Notes under the pieces: model-generated
The model's input: the letters and a program-made list of their open reading frames with translations, nothing else
What the model was told of the DNA's origin: nothing
Database searches by the model: none
Position numbers and translations under genes: made by a program
In this document: piece after piece, positions 34,260 to 40,913 of the stretch
How the letters are laid out: the number at the start of each line of letters is the position of its first letter
How positions within the stretch are numbered: the first letter of the stretch is position 1
From: an uncultured Rhodospirillales bacterium
GTDB taxonomy: Bacteria > Pseudomonadota > Alphaproteobacteria > Rhodospirillales > JABHCV01
NCBI GenBank assembly: GCA_938092065.1
Contig: CALKND010000004.1
Location: forward strand, 62,001-126,000
Length of the DNA: 64,000 bases
Direction: 5' to 3'

Positions 34260-34416
34260 GGAGTTTTGATAACGCTCCGTTTGCTTGAGTGCAATAGTTA
34301 CATTGAAAGCACGGTGGGTGGTAACTTATGTGAAGGGTTGTACAATGTCTTGCCAACGGCCGCAGATCAGACTAATGACTCTTTTCTCTATTGGTGTAGT
34401 AACTTTAAAGAGACGA

Positions 34417-34491
34417 GGGCGCGTAGCTCAGCGGGAGAGCACTGCATTGACATTGCAGGGGTCACTGGTTCAATCCCAGTCGTGCCCACCA
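34417..34491 (+). tRNA. tRNA-Val(GAC), left copy
   Basis: 75 bases including an encoded CCA. The acceptor stem GGGCGCG pairs with CGTGCCC, and the D-arm is AGCTCAGCGGGAGAGC. The anticodon stem CTGCA/TGCAG encloses TTGACAT with anticodon GAC, and the T-arm is CTGGTTCAATCCCAG. It is identical to the copy at 40347 and forms the left attachment site of the island. Confidence 0.97.
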
Positions 34492-34560
34492 TATTTTCTC
34501 CCATGTTATCAATAGGATAGCGTAAGACCGAAACATAAGAATTTTTCTCACAAGTCAATC

Positions 34561-34578
34561 TGGCACACCAGTGGCACA
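34561..34578 (+). repeat. Left TGGCACA arm-type repeats
   Basis: TGGCACA occurs at 34561-34567 and 34572-34578, start to start 11 bases. The same heptamer with the same spacing occurs three times near the right end. They lie between the tRNA and the integrase gene, where arm-type integrase binding sites are expected. Confidence 0.6.
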
Positions 34579-34593
34579 GTGAGGAGTATTCTT

Positions 34594-35214
34594 GTGGCTT
34601 CATATCGCAAACGTGGCAGTGTCTGGCATGTACAGATTCGCCGTAAAGGCCATCCAAGCCTAACTAAAACATTTATATCAAAGGCAGACGCCGATCGCTG
34701 GGTAAGGCGTATAGAGCGCGGCATAGATCTTGGCGAAGGTTTTATCCATGCGGGCGTTACCCAAGCAACATTACTGTGTGAATTGCTTGAGCGTTACAGA
34801 GATACGGTATCAATACATAAGCTGAGCCATGATGTTGAGAAGTGGCGTCTGAATGCTATGTCGCGACACTGGCTAGGAAAGTGCAGTTTGGAGCGCCTGT
34901 CCTCCGAGATTATAAGCAAATATCGTAATGAGAGAATGGACATGGTGTGTGGAGCGTCTGTCTTGATGGAATTAAATTTACTCAGGCATTGCCTCAAAAT
35001 AGCAATTAACGAATGGGGTGCGGCTTTATCAATCAATCTAGTAGACGGTGTTAGATTTCCAAGTCCTAGCAAACCTCGTAAAAGACGCTTGGAAGCTGGA
35101 GAGTTCGACTTCCTGATCCAAGGCTGCAAACTAGGAAGATCGCCCCTGCTTGCCCCTGTCATCATCATCGCGATAGAAACGGGCATGAGGCGGGGGGAGA
35201 GGAGAAAATGGTGA
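34594..35214 (+). pseudogene. Truncated tyrosine integrase
   Basis: About 206 codons from GTG 34594, which has GAGGAG seven bases upstream. The N-terminal arm-binding domain (SVWHVQIRRKGHPSLTKTF, ADADRWVRRIERGIDLGE) and core-binding domain are present. The catalytic domain begins and reaches the first active-site arginine in ETGMRRGE, then ends RRKW-stop. The HxLRH box and the nucleophilic tyrosine are missing. The 250 bases that follow contain no integrase-like sequence in any frame I could read. The enzyme should be inactive. Confidence 0.8.
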
Positions 35215-35405: not shown

Positions 35406-35437
35406 AAGTTTACAGTAGACATAATAGTGTGTATACT
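35406..35437 (+). promoter_or_regulatory. xre promoter with operator
   Basis: A sigma-70-like promoter has TTTACA at 35409-35414, a 17-base spacer and TATACT at 35432-35437, about 35 bases before the xre ATG. The -35 overlaps the pseudo-dyad GTTTACAGTAGAC. The 21 bases from 35406 match the complement of 37265-37285 at 18 positions, so the same regulator probably binds both. Confidence 0.6.
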
Positions 35438-35472: not shown

Positions 35473-35838
35473 ATGACCCTAGGCGACAAGATCAAAGAGC
35501 TACGAGAAGATAAACGTTTCAGCATTAGAGAGCTTGGAAGACGAACTGACGTAAGTGCTATGCACATCTCCAATATTGAGAAGGGGAAGGTTAATGCAAG
35601 CCCTGAACTGGTTACTAAAATAGCAAGTGAGCTTGAGGCCAATGTAGATGAGCTTCTTCACTTAGCTGACCGTGTTGATCCTGAAGTTGTGGATGTAATT
35701 CAAAAGAACCCTACAGCAGTTCCCAGCTTCCTTAGGTCTGCTAAAGACCTCTCACCTGAAGAGTGGGAGAAAATGCAGAACTACTTAAACAAAATGAAGA
35801 AACAGAAGACACCCAAGGGTAAGAAGCGTGGCAAATGA
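35473..35838 (+). CDS. XRE-family transcriptional regulator
   Basis: Repressor-like protein of 121 residues. A helix-turn-helix occupies about residues 6-60 (KIKELREDKRFSIRELGRRT, VSAMHISNIEKGK). The C-terminal part is helical and ends in a strongly basic KKQKTPKGKKRGK. AAGG lies seven bases before ATG 35473. The ImmA-type protease gene starts inside its 3' end (11-base overlap), as in phage and ICE switch pairs where the protease cleaves the repressor. A repeated operator-like sequence at its own promoter suggests autoregulation. Confidence 0.85.
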   Translation: MTLGDKIKELREDKRFSIRELGRRTDVSAMHISNIEKGKVNASPELVTKIASELEANVDELLHLADRVDPEVVDVIQKNPTAVPSFLRSAKDLSPEEWEKMQNYLNKMKKQKTPKGKKRGK

Positions 35839-36517
35839 GCAGTACCCAAAGAGGTCGCTGGATGAAGTGGAGATACTAGCAAATGGACTTAATATTTCTT
35901 ATTTTACTTCTGTTGAGATTGATTTAACGGTACCAATTCCTATTGAAGATATTGCAGAGCATTTCCTTGGTTACTCAATAGACATTACCGATGAAGGATT
36001 ATTCAGTGATCCTAATTTCCTAGGTGGCATCGACTTTGAACAGAACCTTATCTACGTCAATGCTTCGGTTGAGGATCATGATGGAAGGTATGCATTCACT
36101 GTAGCTCACGAAATTGGACACCATGTGCTTCACAGAGAAGCTTATCTGAATGACAAAGAGCAAGGTAAGAGGGAAATACTCTGCAGGGATTCAGGAGAGA
36201 AACCACAGATCGAAATAGAAGCAGATAGGTTTGCTGCTGCGTTACTCATGCCCTCTAGTGTGGTTCTGGAAACCTTCAATCGCATTAAACCAAAACCCAA
36301 AGCATCTACCATTGGTCAGGCTAGAGGTGTGGCGAATGAAGTCATAAAAGAAGGTGGTTTTAGTAACGTCTCCAACACTGCAATGATCAACAGGCTTATT
36401 GATCTAGGTGCAATCAAGGCTGCATATCAAAATGGACTGGTGCACAAGGGTCATAGGGGAAGTCTAATAACAAGAATGGTACGTGGGACGTTGGCCAAAC
36501 TTAAATCGTTTAGATAG
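35828..36517 (+). CDS. ImmA/IrrE-type metalloprotease
   Basis: Zinc protease of 229 residues. AFTVAHEIGHHVLH holds HEXXH at about residues 95-99, and IEIEADRFAAALLMPSSVV is the second family hallmark with the third zinc ligand. Relatives inactivate a cognate XRE repressor after DNA damage or cell-to-cell signals (ImmR/ImmA of ICEBs1, DdrO/IrrE of Deinococcus). The start is GTG 35828, overlapping the xre stop. The 3' end overlaps the converging gene at 36464 by 54 bases. Confidence 0.87.
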   Translation: MANEQYPKRSLDEVEILANGLNISYFTSVEIDLTVPIPIEDIAEHFLGYSIDITDEGLFSDPNFLGGIDFEQNLIYVNASVEDHDGRYAFTVAHEIGHHVLHREAYLNDKEQGKREILCRDSGEKPQIEIEADRFAAALLMPSSVVLETFNRIKPKPKASTIGQARGVANEVIKEGGFSNVSNTAMINRLIDLGAIKAAYQNGLVHKGHRGSLITRMVRGTLAKLKSFR

Positions 36518-36853
36518 TGTTTGTTTGCCTTCAACGAACCCTCCTTTATCCATTAGGACATCCATGTAGTCCGAATATTGCTCTTTAAACTCGTCGCTAG
36601 CGAAAGATAGTGTCAGTATATCCGTGGCCTCATTAAGGTAGCTATCACCTTCGTTCCACTCCCCATATGTCTCATCAGTTTTAATAGCTACAAACCATTT
36701 TGCAAACGGGTTCTTTAGTTCTTTAGAGGGTATTTGATAGCTCTTTAAAAGATGAACTGTTGTATCCCCAAAGGGTCCAAAACCTTTAAATGTTGCGTAC
36801 GGGTTCTCTTTTGGCCGACATTTACCCATTAAGTTCTTTTCTTTACTACTCAT
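36464..36853 (-). CDS. Island protein of unknown function
   Basis: A 129-residue soluble protein that I do not recognise. It is rich in aromatic and charged residues, for example YATFKGFGPFGDTTVHLL and FASDEFKEQYSDYMDVLM. There is no signal peptide or membrane segment. ATG 36853 is chosen because AAGGAAAGGTG lies just before it and TAATG couples it to the upstream 57-residue gene; a GTG three codons earlier is also open. It is the third gene of a minus-strand operon and its 3' end overlaps immA. Confidence 0.6.
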   Translation of the reverse strand: MSSKEKNLMGKCRPKENPYATFKGFGPFGDTTVHLLKSYQIPSKELKNPFAKWFVAIKTDETYGEWNEGDSYLNEATDILTLSFASDEFKEQYSDYMDVLMDKGGFVEGKQTLSKRFKFGQRPTYHSCY

Positions 36854-37026
36854 TATCCACACCTTTCCTTAATTCTTTCGCATACTGTTAAAAGTCCTAA
36901 CAATGGCCACATCACTAAACTTACTGGAATGAGTAGTATCAAGCCCAAAAATAGGATGATTTGCTCGATGGATTTGCGCACTGAATAGATGTACTCACTA
37001 TTTTCTATTATGGTTTTAAGAGACAT
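36853..37026 (-). CDS. Small membrane protein, 57 residues
   Basis: An open frame of 57 codons from ATG 37026 starts MSLKTIIENSEYIYSVRKS, has one long hydrophobic stretch (about residues 22-46, IILFLGLILLIPVSLVMWPL) and ends in a basic KERCG tail. Both ends are coupled by TAATG overlaps of one base, to the 66-residue gene upstream and the 129-residue gene downstream, which strongly supports real coding despite the size. I know no homologue. Confidence 0.6.
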   Translation of the reverse strand: MSLKTIIENSEYIYSVRKSIEQIILFLGLILLIPVSLVMWPLLGLLTVCERIKERCG

Positions 37027-37226
37027 TAAATTGTTCCCCCATTTGCAACTTTGTAGATTTTAACGCCATCTAGAATGACAGTTGCCACCAATGAAAGTGG
37101 TAGTATTAGTATGACGCCCAGACTGAAAAGGGCACCTAAAACTTTGTATAGTTGTTCAGTATGTAGCAACAGACCCACAGAAATTATGATCAGTGAAATT
37201 CCTGTGATTAAGGATGTGATATCCAT
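37026..37226 (-). CDS. Small membrane protein, 66 residues
   Basis: From ATG 37226 (GAAGGTG seven bases before it) the protein reads MDITSLITGISLIIISVGLL, with a second hydrophobic span LGALFSLGVILILPLSLV. Two membrane helices fill most of it. A longer frame running up to 37466 crosses the divergent promoter and is not credible as the start. It is the first gene of the minus-strand operon. Function unknown; size and topology resemble holin- or toxin-like small membrane proteins, but that is only a resemblance. Confidence 0.55.
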   Translation of the reverse strand: MDITSLITGISLIIISVGLLLHTEQLYKVLGALFSLGVILILPLSLVATVILDGVKIYKVANGGTI

Positions 37227-37264: not shown

Positions 37265-37318
37265 AATAATGTATACTGTAAACTTCTAGTTGACATCTGT
37301 CAACATACAGTTTACATT
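37265..37318. promoter_or_regulatory. Divergent promoter with concentric operator
   Basis: Nested inverted repeats share one centre at 37296.5. The outer arms are TGTAAACT (37277-37284) and AGTTTACA (37309-37316). The inner arms are TTGACA (37290-37295) and TGTCAA (37298-37303). The inner left arm also serves as a -35 for a rightward promoter (TTGACA, 17 bases, TACATT at 37313-37318) that would start near 37325, before DUF763. A leftward -35 TTTACA is at 37282-37277, with CATAAA 16 bases on. The left outer arm and its flank match the xre operator at 18 of 21 bases. Confidence 0.65.
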
Positions 37319-37353: not shown

Positions 37354-38592
37354 ATGATTAGTGCAGGTTCAATAGGTATGCCTCTACACTTTGGTAAAGT
37401 GCCCAGATTTCTCTCAGATCGCATGGGGAACATGGGTGAGGCAATAATAGAGTCCATAGTGGACAACTACGGGAAGTCAGAGGTGCTCACACGTATGTCT
37501 GACCCGAATTGGTTTCAGGCCTTCGGTGCAGTCACAGGTATGCACTGGAACTCCTCTGGTGTCACAGCAGTTCTACTCGGAGCACTAAAGCGTCGGCTCA
37601 ATCCGAAGTCACATGAGCTAGGTCTCTACCTACTAGGTGGTAAAGGTAAAGCTGCATACGGAACAGAGAAGAAGCTAGGCAAAATCGCAGAGGAACATAA
37701 TCTTCCGGGAAAGGAGCTAGCTAAGTCATCCAGAATGACGCGTAGGATAGACAACAACGCTGTTCAGGACGGGTTTGATCTCTACCAACAGTACTTCCTC
37801 GTCTCAGACGAAGGCGAGTGGACAGCTATCTCTCAGGGCATGAACAAAGGAACTCGTCGTGCTCGTCGTTACCACTGGCACTCTCCTACTGTACGTTCGT
37901 TTGGTGAAGCCCCACATACGGGCATTATGGGTATAGAGAATCAGAAGGTTCTCAATCTCGTAGACCCTCAGGCTGACAAACTTAGGACCAACATGGTAGA
38001 GCTCACGAAGGAGAAGCCCTCTGAGATTGTTAAGGCTGTACGTGAAGGTGATCTACCTAACCGCCATGATGTTCGCAAAGAGGACATCAATATGCCACGG
38101 TTGGCCTCTGTTCTTGATCTTGCCTACAACCGTGGGGTTGAGAACTTCGAGGAGTTAGTGGACCTACATAATGTTGGCCCTCGTACCTTGAAGGCACTGG
38201 CGATAGCGAGTGAGGTCATCCACGGCGATGCTACTCGTTTTGATGACCCGGCTAGGTTCTCATTCGCAGTAGGTGGTAAGGACGGTCGTCCACATCCCAT
38301 TGACACCAAGTCATTTGATGAGACCGTAGAGATGTTGCAAAACAGCGTAGATAAGTCAAAACTGGGCGATAAGGATAAGTCCTCAGCCCTGAGAAAACTA
38401 CACAACATGGCTGTAACGGGTGAGACGAAGGGCACTCCTATCGAGTTCCTTCAGGACCTCATTGACAGCGAATGGAACCATGCTGAGTCTAATGGGGGGA
38501 AGACTTTCATGGGTGGTGTCGTAAAGGGCGTCACTAGAAAGCTCATGGATACGCAGAACTCTCTGCTCTATGGAAAATCAAATGACAAGTAA
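37354..38592 (+). CDS. DUF763 protein with helix-hairpin-helix
   Basis: Protein of 412 residues belonging to DUF763 (COG1415), common in archaea and scattered in bacteria, with no established activity. Conserved blocks are visible in order: MPLHFGKVPRFLSDRM, RMSDPNWFQAFG, HWNSSGVTAVLLGALK, LLGGKGKA, IDNNAVQDGFDLYQQYF, ARRYHWHSP and GGKDGRPHPID. Near residues 270-287 LHNVGPRTLKALAIASEVI is a helix-hairpin-helix, so DNA or RNA binding is likely. ATG 37354 has AAAGGTG six bases upstream; a GTG three codons earlier lacks one. The radical SAM gene begins inside its 3' end. Base and codon use look different from the neighbouring housekeeping genes by eye. Confidence 0.8.
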   Translation: MISAGSIGMPLHFGKVPRFLSDRMGNMGEAIIESIVDNYGKSEVLTRMSDPNWFQAFGAVTGMHWNSSGVTAVLLGALKRRLNPKSHELGLYLLGGKGKAAYGTEKKLGKIAEEHNLPGKELAKSSRMTRRIDNNAVQDGFDLYQQYFLVSDEGEWTAISQGMNKGTRRARRYHWHSPTVRSFGEAPHTGIMGIENQKVLNLVDPQADKLRTNMVELTKEKPSEIVKAVREGDLPNRHDVRKEDINMPRLASVLDLAYNRGVENFEELVDLHNVGPRTLKALAIASEVIHGDATRFDDPARFSFAVGGKDGRPHPIDTKSFDETVEMLQNSVDKSKLGDKDKSSALRKLHNMAVTGETKGTPIEFLQDLIDSEWNHAESNGGKTFMGGVVKGVTRKLMDTQNSLLYGKSNDK

Positions 38593-39364
38593 GGGCTACG
38601 ACCCAATTGCTCTCACGGCGGCCACCGAAAAGGTGGTCGTCGATGGGACACGCAGAAAGTACGTTCAGCTAGGGCGTCCTCTGCGTTTCTACGGTGGCAC
38701 AACGAGTGCCACTGAGGTCGGCTGTAATCTTCGCTGTAAGTTCTGCTTCAGCGATAAACCTGTCTGGAAACCAAAAGAGACAGGTAAGTTCTACTCGCCT
38801 CAGGAGGTGTTTAATGGGCTGGCTAAAAGTGCTCGAAAGCATGGGCACAAGATTATTTCGGCCTCTGCGTCAGAAGGCACAATAGGTCGTGAGCATCTCA
38901 TGGAACTGCTCGACCTTGTTGAGGAAAGCGAGTTCGTCTACGTACTAGAGACCAACGGCATGACCCTTGGCAACGACCCTGAATATGTTCAGGCTCTGTC
39001 GAAGTACTCTCGTCTCCATGCCCGTGTATCCATCAAGGGTGATAGTCCAGAGATGTTCCACGAACTGACTGGTGCACATCCAGACAGCTATGAACTGCCA
39101 TATAAAGCACTCCGATATTTGATTGATTCTAGTGTGTCCACGAATGCATGTCTGATGGCATCGTTCTCTGACGGCGAGGGGATCAAGAGGGTCCAGAGGA
39201 AGCTTATGGAGATACACCCCGGCATTCTAAAGTCGCTGGAGATAGAGAAAATCACGTTGTTTCCAAAGGTGGCACAGCGTTTGAGAGCATATAAGTTAAA
39301 ACCAGAGAGTGTTAGGAGGGATTGTAATAAGACTAAACAACTTAACAGTTATAATTGTAACTAA
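38570..39364 (+). CDS. Radical SAM enzyme partnered with DUF763
   Basis: Radical SAM protein of 264 residues. The cluster motif is CNLRCKFC (Cys52, Cys56, Cys59), preceded by FYGGTTSATEVG, and is followed by FCFSDKPVW. SASEGTIGREHLMELLDLV and VYVLETNGM mark the barrel, the latter as in activase-like enzymes. The pattern resembles archaeal MoaA-like proteins of COG5014. I see no second iron-sulfur domain; Cys238 onward holds few cysteines. The start (38570, or ATG 38582) overlaps the DUF763 stop by 23 or 11 bases, and no good ribosome site is seen, so translation is coupled. The substrate is unknown. Confidence 0.8.
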   Translation: MENQMTSKGYDPIALTAATEKVVVDGTRRKYVQLGRPLRFYGGTTSATEVGCNLRCKFCFSDKPVWKPKETGKFYSPQEVFNGLAKSARKHGHKIISASASEGTIGREHLMELLDLVEESEFVYVLETNGMTLGNDPEYVQALSKYSRLHARVSIKGDSPEMFHELTGAHPDSYELPYKALRYLIDSSVSTNACLMASFSDGEGIKRVQRKLMEIHPGILKSLEIEKITLFPKVAQRLRAYKLKPESVRRDCNKTKQLNSYNCN

Positions 39365-39398: not shown

Positions 39399-39875
39399 AT
39401 GAAAGCTCTGTCGATAATCTTAATCACTTTAATTTACTTTAATAGCCAAGCATCAATGGCGGCTAGTGATATTGCTCAATGCGGAAGCATTAGTGGATGG
39501 ACCCATTACCATGCTGGTGACGTCATGTCGCCAGCTCGCTCTGGTTGGCAAAAAGATGGAATTTCAAAAGGAAAAACGGCCCTCAAAAAACTTGATTCTG
39601 GTGATTTTGATATACTTTACCTTGATGCCACAGGAAGCATTTATTCATATATTCAGGATGGGTACAAAATTCTCAAGATCAGGGCATCAGGCTCCGATAT
39701 TGCATTAGTTTTGGTCAGTCCTAGAGGAATAATAGAGTTCTATAATTTCTACAAAGAACCAAACGGGAAACTAAAAATGGATTGGGCACAAAATAAGGGG
39801 GATACATTCCTTATTGCGAAGTCATCTATGATGTCTGGAGAATGTAGTTTTATTGAGTTTGATGCTGCTAAATGA
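39399..39875 (+). CDS. Small exported island protein
   Basis: Exported protein of 158 residues, signal peptide MKALSIILITLIYFNSQASM cleaved near MAA-SD. ATG 39399 has AGGA eight bases upstream; the frame is open to 39309 but lacks coding character there. Two cysteines remain in the mature part (SDIAQCGSISG and SGECSFIEF) and could form a disulfide. The gene begins 34 bases after the radical SAM stop, so it may share its transcript. I recognise no family. Confidence 0.6.
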   Translation: MKALSIILITLIYFNSQASMAASDIAQCGSISGWTHYHAGDVMSPARSGWQKDGISKGKTALKKLDSGDFDILYLDATGSIYSYIQDGYKILKIRASGSDIALVLVSPRGIIEFYNFYKEPNGKLKMDWAQNKGDTFLIAKSSMMSGECSFIEFDAAK

Positions 39876-40346
39876 TGAATGCCTCAACTGATACTGGCTG
39901 GGTTGGAATCCGCAAAAGCCGATATCAAGAATTTTTCTGAGATAATCTCAGGGTCTGTTTTATTAAGGAACCCGTGCCCCCACTCCCCCGGGGTACCCCT
40001 GTCTCATCACAGTCTGATCGATGGTAAGAATGTTAAATAGTGACAAAGGGACACGATGGACACGTGTATGTAATGGTTCTAACTTTATTGAACTTTATAA
40101 AAGGAACTGAATAGCGTGTCACCGGTGTCACCTTGTCACCTCGAACACCTCTTCATAGGCCTGAGTAGCACCTGTGAAGCCCTAACACGGACATATATCT
40201 ATCATCGAAATGGAACTGCACAGGCTGGCACAATTCTGGCACACCTATGGCACAATTCACTGCATATATGGCTGTTTTATGGTGTGTAGGTGTGTTAAGC
40301 TCTGTTGAGTTAACAAATTGAGTTTAAATGAAGAATTCTCATAATA
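39876..40346. other. Right-end noncoding region of the island
   Basis: About 470 bases with no credible gene. It holds a short hairpin CTGAGAT/ATCTCAG at 39937-39951, which ends without a good T-tract. It also holds GC-rich palindromic bases near 39980-39995, and the three TGGCACA repeats at 40226-40254. The last 90 bases are AT-rich and run into the right tRNA-Val. Confidence 0.5.
40226..40254 (+). repeat. Right TGGCACA arm-type repeats
   Basis: TGGCACA starts at 40226, 40237 and 40248, exactly 11 bases apart, placing them on one face of the helix. The left end of the island has two copies with the same spacing and the same orientation. This is the layout of arm-type binding sites for a tyrosine integrase. 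Confidence 0.65.
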
Positions 40347-40421
40347 GGGCGCGTAGCTCAGCGGGAGAGCACTGCATTGACATTGCAGGGGTCACTGGTT
40401 CAATCCCAGTCGTGCCCACCA
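40347..40421 (+). tRNA. tRNA-Val(GAC), right copy
   Basis: Identical over all 75 bases to the copy at 34417-34491, including the encoded CCA and anticodon GAC in TTGACAT. It marks the right edge of the island. The sequence before the two copies differs completely, and the match after CCA ends within a few bases, so the tRNA is the whole duplicated unit. A GGGGTTAGC/GCTAACCCC hairpin follows only this copy. Confidence 0.97.
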
Positions 40422-40913
40422 TAATTATCGAGGGGTTAGCAGAAGGTGGCTAACCCCCTGTTCCGTTGGGCAGTACATATCAGTGGGACAAAGGCCCTGC
40501 AAGAACCCATTGTGCGGAAATATTTTTAAGACCACATTGAGGCTACCCTCATCGTTGGGTTTGCGGCTGCTATAAACCTTAATGTAGAAAATTGTTGGAG
40601 TAGCTTCGTTTTTTTGAATGTTGGCGTATTAGAGGTGAACACTTTTGGTTCTGATCGAACAATTTAAAATAAATAGAGATAAACGAAGTAGTATTGTAAA
40701 AAAAAATGAACACGTGGCATATAGAGAATAATGCTTCTGTTGACGGAATGTCTTATAAAAACTCAAGAGGATTAAATTGGCGACTACATACCAAAATGTG
40801 TATTTTTCACTTTGGACACTTTCTAAATTGCAACTCAGACTTCGGCCAAGAAAGTCCAGCCGTACAAATAGTCTTCATTCCAAAACTTGCTTCCCTTTTT
40901 GAGCCATAAATAG
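40422..40913. other. Intergenic region after right tRNA-Val
   Basis: About 490 bases. A 9-bp hairpin (GGGGTTAGC at 40432-40440 with GCTAACCCC at 40449-40457) lies 10 bases after the tRNA and may end its transcript, though no T-tract follows. A 67-codon open frame at 40706-40909 has no coding character. Nothing else was seen. Confidence 0.5.

Follow-up and report, generated by a model that had tools for sequence, protein, structure and literature searches.

Gene organization of the locus

The window, i.e., the whole 64,000-nucleotide stretch of DNA analyzed here, derives from an uncultured Rhodospirillales bacterium whose genome assembly comprises 2.07 Mb in 37 contigs and is 90.65% complete. 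It contains a gene for a DUF763 protein followed by a gene for a radical SAM enzyme (rSAM), and upstream of these are genes for a CapH-like repressor and a CapP-like metalloprotease. All four lie, together with several smaller open reading frames (ORFs), on an island between two tRNA genes (Table 1).

Table 1. Features of the island (window positions) and Ldi-like genes at related loci (positions within each locus)
Feature	Position	Strand	Description
Left tRNA-Val(gac) direct repeat	34416..34496	+	Left island border; tRNA gene 34417-34491
Truncated integrase-like ORF	34579..35214	+	N-terminal part; likeness to L018 protein; no Pfam integrase match
Promoter-like site upstream of capH	35406..35437	+	Carries AAGTTTACAGTAGACAT, common to DUF763 upstream region
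CapH-like HTH repressor	35473..35838	+	121 aa; HTH_3 2.8e-11; PADLOC capH 9.4e-17
CapP-like M78 metalloprotease	35828..36517	+	229 aa, HEIGH motif; Peptidase_M78 8.9e-13; PADLOC capP 6.3e-22
Hypothetical ORF	36464..36862	-	132 aa from GTG; overlaps capP 3' end; divergent from DUF763; no Pfam match
Small ORF	36853..37026	-	57 aa, hydrophobic by eye
Small ORF	37026..37226	-	66 aa, hydrophobic by eye; divergent from DUF763
Two tandem 19-bp palindromes	37277..37316	+	TGTMAAC-N5-GTTKACA, 2 bp apart; presumed CapH operator
DUF763 protein	37354..38592	+	412 aa; alternative start GTG 37345; Pfam
Radical SAM enzyme (rSAM)	38570..39364	+	264 aa; C52-x3-C56-x2-C59
Hypothetical protein	39399..39875	+	Inside island; signal-peptide-like start by eye; no Pfam match
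Right tRNA-Val(gac) direct repeat	40346..40426	+	Right island border; tRNA gene 40347-40421
Ldi-like gene, L025	173-1237
Ldi-like gene, L026	6217-7409		Broken
Ldi-like gene, L027	10783-11892
Ldi-like gene, L028	3621-4802
Ldi-like gene, L031	10695-11876
Ldi-like gene, L033	2523-3590
Ldi-like gene, L066
Ldi-like gene, L067
Ldi-like gene, L068

The DUF763 protein matched Pfam family PF05559 (E 2.2e-114; 382 bits against a gathering score of 35.5; profile positions 3-319 of 319) and the enzyme matched PF04055 (E 8.2e-14). ATG codons of the rSAM frame are located 11 and 23 nt before the end of DUF763. Thus, the pair reported in the original prediction is real, and its genes overlap. In 18 of 19 loci (window included), the nearest rSAM start lay between 4 nt after and 23 nt before the DUF763 end; the exception, L067, is the one locus without a match to the search pattern. 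A helix-hairpin-helix had also been described in DUF763, and the segment 'LHNVGPRTLKALA' can be read this way by eye, but no HhH model matched. The notion that DUF763 is mostly archaeal was not supported: within the phylum of the window, 21 of 398 genomes contain the family (its own genome counted), as do 230 plasmid records, 209 of them from Rhizobium or Sinorhizobium.

The two tRNA-Val(gac) copies, spaced 5930 bp apart on either side of the 5.9-kb island, belong to a direct repeat of 81 nt with 99% identity, in agreement with the tRNA-bounded element first proposed. With these repeats and an integrase-like ORF, the latter truncated, it qualifies as a tRNA-integrated island. The ORF shows 36% identity to residues 31-221 of a 346-aa protein encoded at a related locus, L018, only this part being convincing, and our reading of the L018 homolog suggests a recombinase of the tyrosine type. 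Close to each end of the island (34559-34578 and 40224-40254) are short repeats of the TCTGGCACACC type, possibly arm sites for the integrase. Four of five relatives have the gene that adjoins the island on the left, each time with one tRNA-Val beside it, and a search of the fifth did not reveal this gene; on the right side, contig ends intervene in two relatives. Of the relatives sampled, the five from the same genus and family had no DUF763, and one of 59 others did. No other defense gene was seen on the island.

The operon most closely related to that of the window, at L018 (6340-10771), has an integrase nearby, along with two proteins of 224 and 401 aa with no Pfam match; this region is possibly an intact version of the window element.

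Occurrence of the four-gene operon

A scan of the species-genome collection seeded with rSAM identified 17 loci (59-83% identity). When these were searched with the island proteins (tblastn), DUF763 adjoined rSAM in 16, and CapH and CapP genes were upstream in 13. As for the remaining four, L022 and L024 begin inside DUF763, L025 ends after an upstream Ldi-like gene, and L030 has an rSAM piece only (residues 47-249), with neither DUF763 nor CapH and CapP. In L026, the DUF763 frame is broken. The hosts included one Rhodospirillaceae metagenome-assembled genome, which has the nearest relative of the window pair, several gammaproteobacteria (Thioglobus and HTCC2080 included) and Marinimicrobia; a further locus lies on a 3.2-kb contig assigned to Flavobacteriales, perhaps by a binning error. 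Many of the hosts are from lineages known as marine, habitat being absent from most record titles.

Searches seeded with DUF763 gave matches in 4 of 140 genomes of the HTCC2080 family and 5 of 199 of the Marinimicrobia phylum. Three of these nine loci (L066, L067 and L068) were new, and all three had rSAM, CapH and CapP. The pair is therefore no stray association: its genes are adjacent in 16 of 17 loci and in the three new ones, of which L068 has only parts of both. In L068 (1525-2157), residues 4-132 of DUF763 continue directly as rSAM residues 124-249, a joint that looks like an internal deletion or an assembly chimera. Identities of DUF763 and rSAM agreed over 12 loci (Mantel r 0.88, reached in 0 of 500 permutations). 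Together, capH, capP, DUF763 and rSAM form a conserved, patchily distributed and co-inherited four-gene unit. Among the openly licensed PMC papers listed by the searches, no description of this operon was found.

The 17 related loci do not share the tRNA setting of the window, a search for tRNA genes in them having given none. By clustering, two of them have an integrase of the type seen in the window; the case for mobility elsewhere therefore rests on patchiness and host range. Plasmid records contained no relatives of the window rSAM. No relatives of either protein were present in viral_contigs or phage records, as searched by single-protein scans, which reach close relatives only, and by two alignment scans, each based on two short peptide patterns. 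On this basis, carriage of the pair by viruses was rejected, distant viral forms being outside the reach of the search.

Additional genes accompany the operon in some lineages. An Ldi-like protein (related to linalool dehydratase/isomerase; 354-393 aa where intact) was observed at varying positions in 9 of 20 non-window loci (Table 1); Pfam Ldi matched three of seven members (9.1e-6), and a PDB profile match had an E-value of 0.003. A small conserved membrane-like protein follows rSAM in seven loci (L020, L023, L024, L025, L026, L029 and L034); it has an SGYP...-like motif, is hydrophobic by eye, and had no Pfam match in the L029 member scanned. Neither protein was found in the window. In L022 (1550-3070), a second radical-SAM-looking protein of 506 aa comes directly after the operon rSAM.

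Properties of rSAM and DUF763

The enzyme has the CxxxCxxC motif, the PF04055 match and a modeled fold of the radical SAM superfamily, and is a member of it. Residues C52, C56 and C59 were invariant in 15 of 15 aligned sequences. With about 260 aa, it is a minimal enzyme; truncation of the window copy was rejected given that complete relatives have 251-293 aa. A 217-aa form in L030 is a remnant, and contig ends cut off the gene in L032 and L033. The predicted model (pLDDT 68; residues 24-73, cluster loop included, under 50) best matched NifB (Z 11.9, rmsd 3.0 over 167 residues), followed at nearly tied Z by PFL-activase, SuiB, MqnE and viperins, and sequence searches against PDB gave generic radical SAM matches with NifB the best. 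Spore photoproduct lyase showed a fold-level likeness only (Z 9.1, rmsd 4.4, 201 residues). Placement in a named subfamily was rejected, as the NCBIfam scores of the window protein were all far under the cut-offs; nor do these scores support the earlier impression of an archaeal-looking enzyme. The viperin model NF038283 scored 21.7 bits against a cut-off of 180, and the protein is thus not a viperin by this measure.

An alignment of 25 DUF763 sequences, one of them archaeal, contained 63 invariant residues, including H12, D133, Q138-D139, Q161, R171-R172-Y173-H174, H238, E287, D298 and K309-D310. Because so many positions are invariant in these sequences, an enzyme or a demanding binding site is suggested. 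The 14 operon DUF763s tested occupy one side of a branch in the tree (support 100/100), and dN/dS was 0.02-0.06 in five usable pairs, with dS saturated in three. The predicted structure (pLDDT 58) had no confident fold. Its best Foldseek E-value was 0.25, with no PDB match at E 0.001; the best Z by VIA was 3.4 (rmsd 3.3 over 65 residues), for a model that is itself weak; and sequence searches of PDB yielded nothing convincing. Structure prediction, which had been proposed as a check on the pair, therefore supported rSAM through its radical SAM fold matches and was uninformative for DUF763, whose model was too weak. A 2005 report (PMC554113) includes DUF763 among families of unknown function, and the openly licensed PMC papers searched contained no later mention of it.

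Rhizobial and archaeal DUF763s outside the operon clade belong to the same Pfam family and have the 63 invariant residues in common with those of the operon (32-42% identity in the loci aligned), but their surroundings differ. No plausible rSAM neighbor was present at 24 of 26 such loci; the operon rSAM profile had no match at 1e-3 around any of them, and an rSAM-like ORF was recognized by motif only in L072 and L092. The CapP profile matched none of the 26 and the CapH profile one (L080). The flanks searched were mostly about 8 kb per side (6-7 kb for L003, L004 and L070-L072, and 1.5 kb for L002); the flank of L091 is cut on one side, and L004 is without annotation.

A probable CapH/CapP switch with an operator-like site

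The original prediction placed the pair under control of a repressor. A regulator is indeed encoded on the island, not as a lone repressor but as half of a repressor-protease pair (PADLOC capH and capP). An HTH repressor gene adjoining that of an M78 HExxH metalloprotease, with an operator-like site at the controlled promoter, identifies a CapH/CapP pair, and HExxH was present in 14 of 14 CapP proteins. According to two reports (PMC13373217; PMC10904395), CapP is an ssDNA-activated protease that cuts the CapH repressor, and such pairs control immune operons by ssDNA-triggered derepression. By analogy with these published pairs, the one described here is likely switched by ssDNA.

The tandem palindromes just upstream of DUF763 read TGTAAAC-N5-GTTGACA and TGTCAAC-N5-GTTTACA, and they overlie promoter-like sites on both strands in a promoter scan whose counts were at chance. 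The pattern was written after the sequences had been seen, and genome uniqueness and recurrence elsewhere serve as checks on it. In the 2.07-Mb genome, TGTMAACNNNNNGTTKACA occurs exactly at two places, both at the DUF763 promoter, and a backward control pattern had no occurrence. Within the window, 0.03 matches at no more than one mismatch were expected versus two exact ones found. For AAGTTTACAGTANACAT at up to three mismatches, the count was not significant (13 of 100 shuffles reached two matches); both matches are exact.

Among 111 loci searched, exact operator copies start 62-150 bp upstream of capH in five: a tandem pair in L019 and L026, and one copy in L020, L029 and L033. L021 has one exact copy about 690 bp from capH. 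A looser search found only sites 230-690 bp from capH in L021, L023, L032 and L034, and nothing near capH in L018, L066 and the Marinimicrobia loci L027, L028, L031, L067 and L068. When the upstream regions of capH and DUF763 were compared, the best common 18-mer exceeded every one of 60 shuffles for the window and for L018; it did not do so in L019, L020, L027, L028, L029 and L033.

In known CapH/CapP-controlled immune operons (CBASS and others), the repressor gene likewise overlaps the M78 HExxH protease gene upstream of the operon, palindromes resembling operators are found at the promoter, and defense genes are often near. The difference is the downstream pair, here DUF763 and a radical SAM enzyme, and we regard the operon as a variant of those controlled by CapH/CapP. 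It is not a CBASS operon, as eight island ORFs scanned with Pfam contained no CD-NTase match. DUF763 had no match among PADLOC models at E 0.1, and both 'DUF763' and 'radical SAM' are absent from the accessible text of PMC13373217. A similar protease/repressor logic with an ssDNA trigger is known from PprI(IrrE)/DdrO of Deinococcus (PMC10904395), whereas here one mobile operon combines it with a downstream pair of unrelated genes.

Defense genes near the operon

Strong PADLOC matches were obtained at 8 of 14 loci with at least 4 kb of flank. These included SspB/SspC, an RT and SspD (L026), DruE/DruF of Druantia (L029), PglZ/BrxL of BREX (L066), a type I methyltransferase (L034; a weaker one, 1.6e-17, in L021), IIG-like and type II methyltransferases (L024), a cytosine methyltransferase and NERD-UvrD (L027), and Z1/helicase (L019). 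No defense gene was identified at L018, L020, L022, L030, L031 and L067, from which seven ORFs were scanned singly, none of them from L018 or L022. Of the two kinds of neighbor originally proposed for scoring, defense genes were identified at 8 of the 14 flanked loci, and integrases of the window's type in 2 of 17 loci.

At 1e-20, 95 flank ORFs (at least 150 aa, 17 loci) matched 206 PADLOC models, 25 of which are among the matches listed; for 114 control ORFs, sampled elsewhere in these genomes from 19 segments, the number of models was 10. Model counts exaggerate the difference, large families being represented by many models each; counted by ORF, the enrichment was modest (at least 15 of 95 in flanks versus at most 11 of 114 in controls). 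The control matches were to RmuC-like, IetA, mad, SspH and ATPase-Toprim models, mad2 being one that also matches methyltransferases; BREX, Druantia and restriction models were absent from these ten.

Proposed function of the operon

The best explanation, in our opinion, is that capH-capP-DUF763-rSAM is a horizontally spread, alarm-triggered defense system whose effector acts on nucleic acid; we consider it about evenly poised between right and wrong. At rest, CapH would occupy the tandem palindromes at the DUF763 promoter and keep the pair silent, as the sites and the protein family suggest. ssDNA arising from phage replication or DNA damage would activate CapP, which by family precedent would cut CapH. 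DUF763 and rSAM would then be made together, their gene overlap being consistent with translational coupling. Most likely, DUF763 would bind nucleic acid through its helix-hairpin-helix-like segment and invariant residues and present it to rSAM, which, in what is the weakest step, would alter it by radical chemistry and block the invader. Some lineages add the small membrane-like or the Ldi-like protein. Judged from gene content and context, the operon probably has an anti-phage function.

The main rival, which we find unlikely although worth serious attention, is a mobile DNA-repair operon, switched on by CapH/CapP after damage as DdrO/PprI acts in Deinococcus; DUF763 would recognize damaged DNA, and rSAM would reverse the lesion in the manner of spore photoproduct lyase. 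That enzyme is among the rSAM model matches, below NifB and PFL-activase. A housekeeping function on DNA would be in keeping with the archaeal and rhizobial DUF763s that have no rSAM, and several carriers are from bacterial lineages of the sunlit ocean. A precedent is PprI/DdrO, a protease/repressor pair that is activated by ssDNA and serves a damage response (PMC10904395). Defense is nevertheless weighed above repair because of the patchy occurrence of the operon, its mobility, illustrated by the tRNA island of the window, and the defense neighbors at more than half of the flanked loci; furthermore, the recognized companion, the Ldi-like protein, is not a repair gene.

Improbable, in comparison, is a viperin-like role, in which rSAM would produce a modified nucleotide toxic to phage polymerases, with DUF763 as an accessory or immunity protein. 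Like prokaryotic viperins, rSAM is a small radical SAM enzyme in a defense-like setting; viperin structures reach Z of about 10 against its model, and viperin models match weakly and partially (PADLOC pVip 3.2e-5; NF038283 in 15 of 15 members, best 1.6e-5). However, the score is far below the viperin cut-off, the TrsS, MoaA, PFL-activase and ScmF models match better, and CapH/CapP genes and a conserved DUF763 neighbor are present, whereas viperin needs, to our knowledge, no partner of the DUF763 kind. Least of all do we favor ordinary island cargo, a very improbable reading in which CapH/CapP would resemble ImmR/ImmA and regulate the mobile element, with DUF763 and rSAM as unrelated passengers. 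The integrase remnant on the island would agree with it, as would the control of the integrative element TnSmu1 by an ImmR-like regulator (PMC10233336), but the four genes stay together across different hosts and surroundings, and the operator is at DUF763 or capH, with no exact motif at the integrase.

If the defense system is real, it would add a second radical-SAM defense chemistry and a mobile system present in more than one phylum. The conserved DUF763-rSAM pairing, together with a defined operator and a damage-sensing switch of known type, offers a direct route to the function of DUF763.

A second gene assembly with DUF763

The two out-of-clade loci with an rSAM-like ORF have an eight-gene cluster in common, located at 153-7248 of L072 (a plasmid of Rhizobium sp. 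WYJ-E13) and at about 2300-10019 of L092 (genome G594). It encodes DUF6932, an HTH-M78 fusion, DUF4186, a radical SAM protein, a 444-aa DPPW-motif protein, ASCH, a kinase-like ATPase and DUF763, the last of which is on the rhizobial side of the tree. The cluster resembles the window operon in its HTH-M78 regulator, DUF763 and remotely related radical SAM protein (hhalign probability 95, E 4e-8, 195 columns, with a profile of two sequences only on the rhizobial side); it differs in that the regulator is fused and DUF6932, DUF4186, the DPPW-motif protein, ASCH and the ATPase are added. It looks like a second DUF763 system. Either the three parts were joined twice, or an old association was mostly lost, and either would imply a working link between DUF763 and rSAM.

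A more specific version of the defense reading is that, once CapP senses ssDNA, DUF763 loads invading nucleic acid onto rSAM, which damages or marks it, in a new class of immune effector with two assemblies. We advance it tentatively, as possible but on balance doubtful. If true, its forms would be the four-gene operon and the rhizobial cluster, and it would give DUF763 its first function and represent a radical-chemistry defense distinct from viperin. The DPPW-motif protein of the cluster appears, by our reading, methyltransferase-like.
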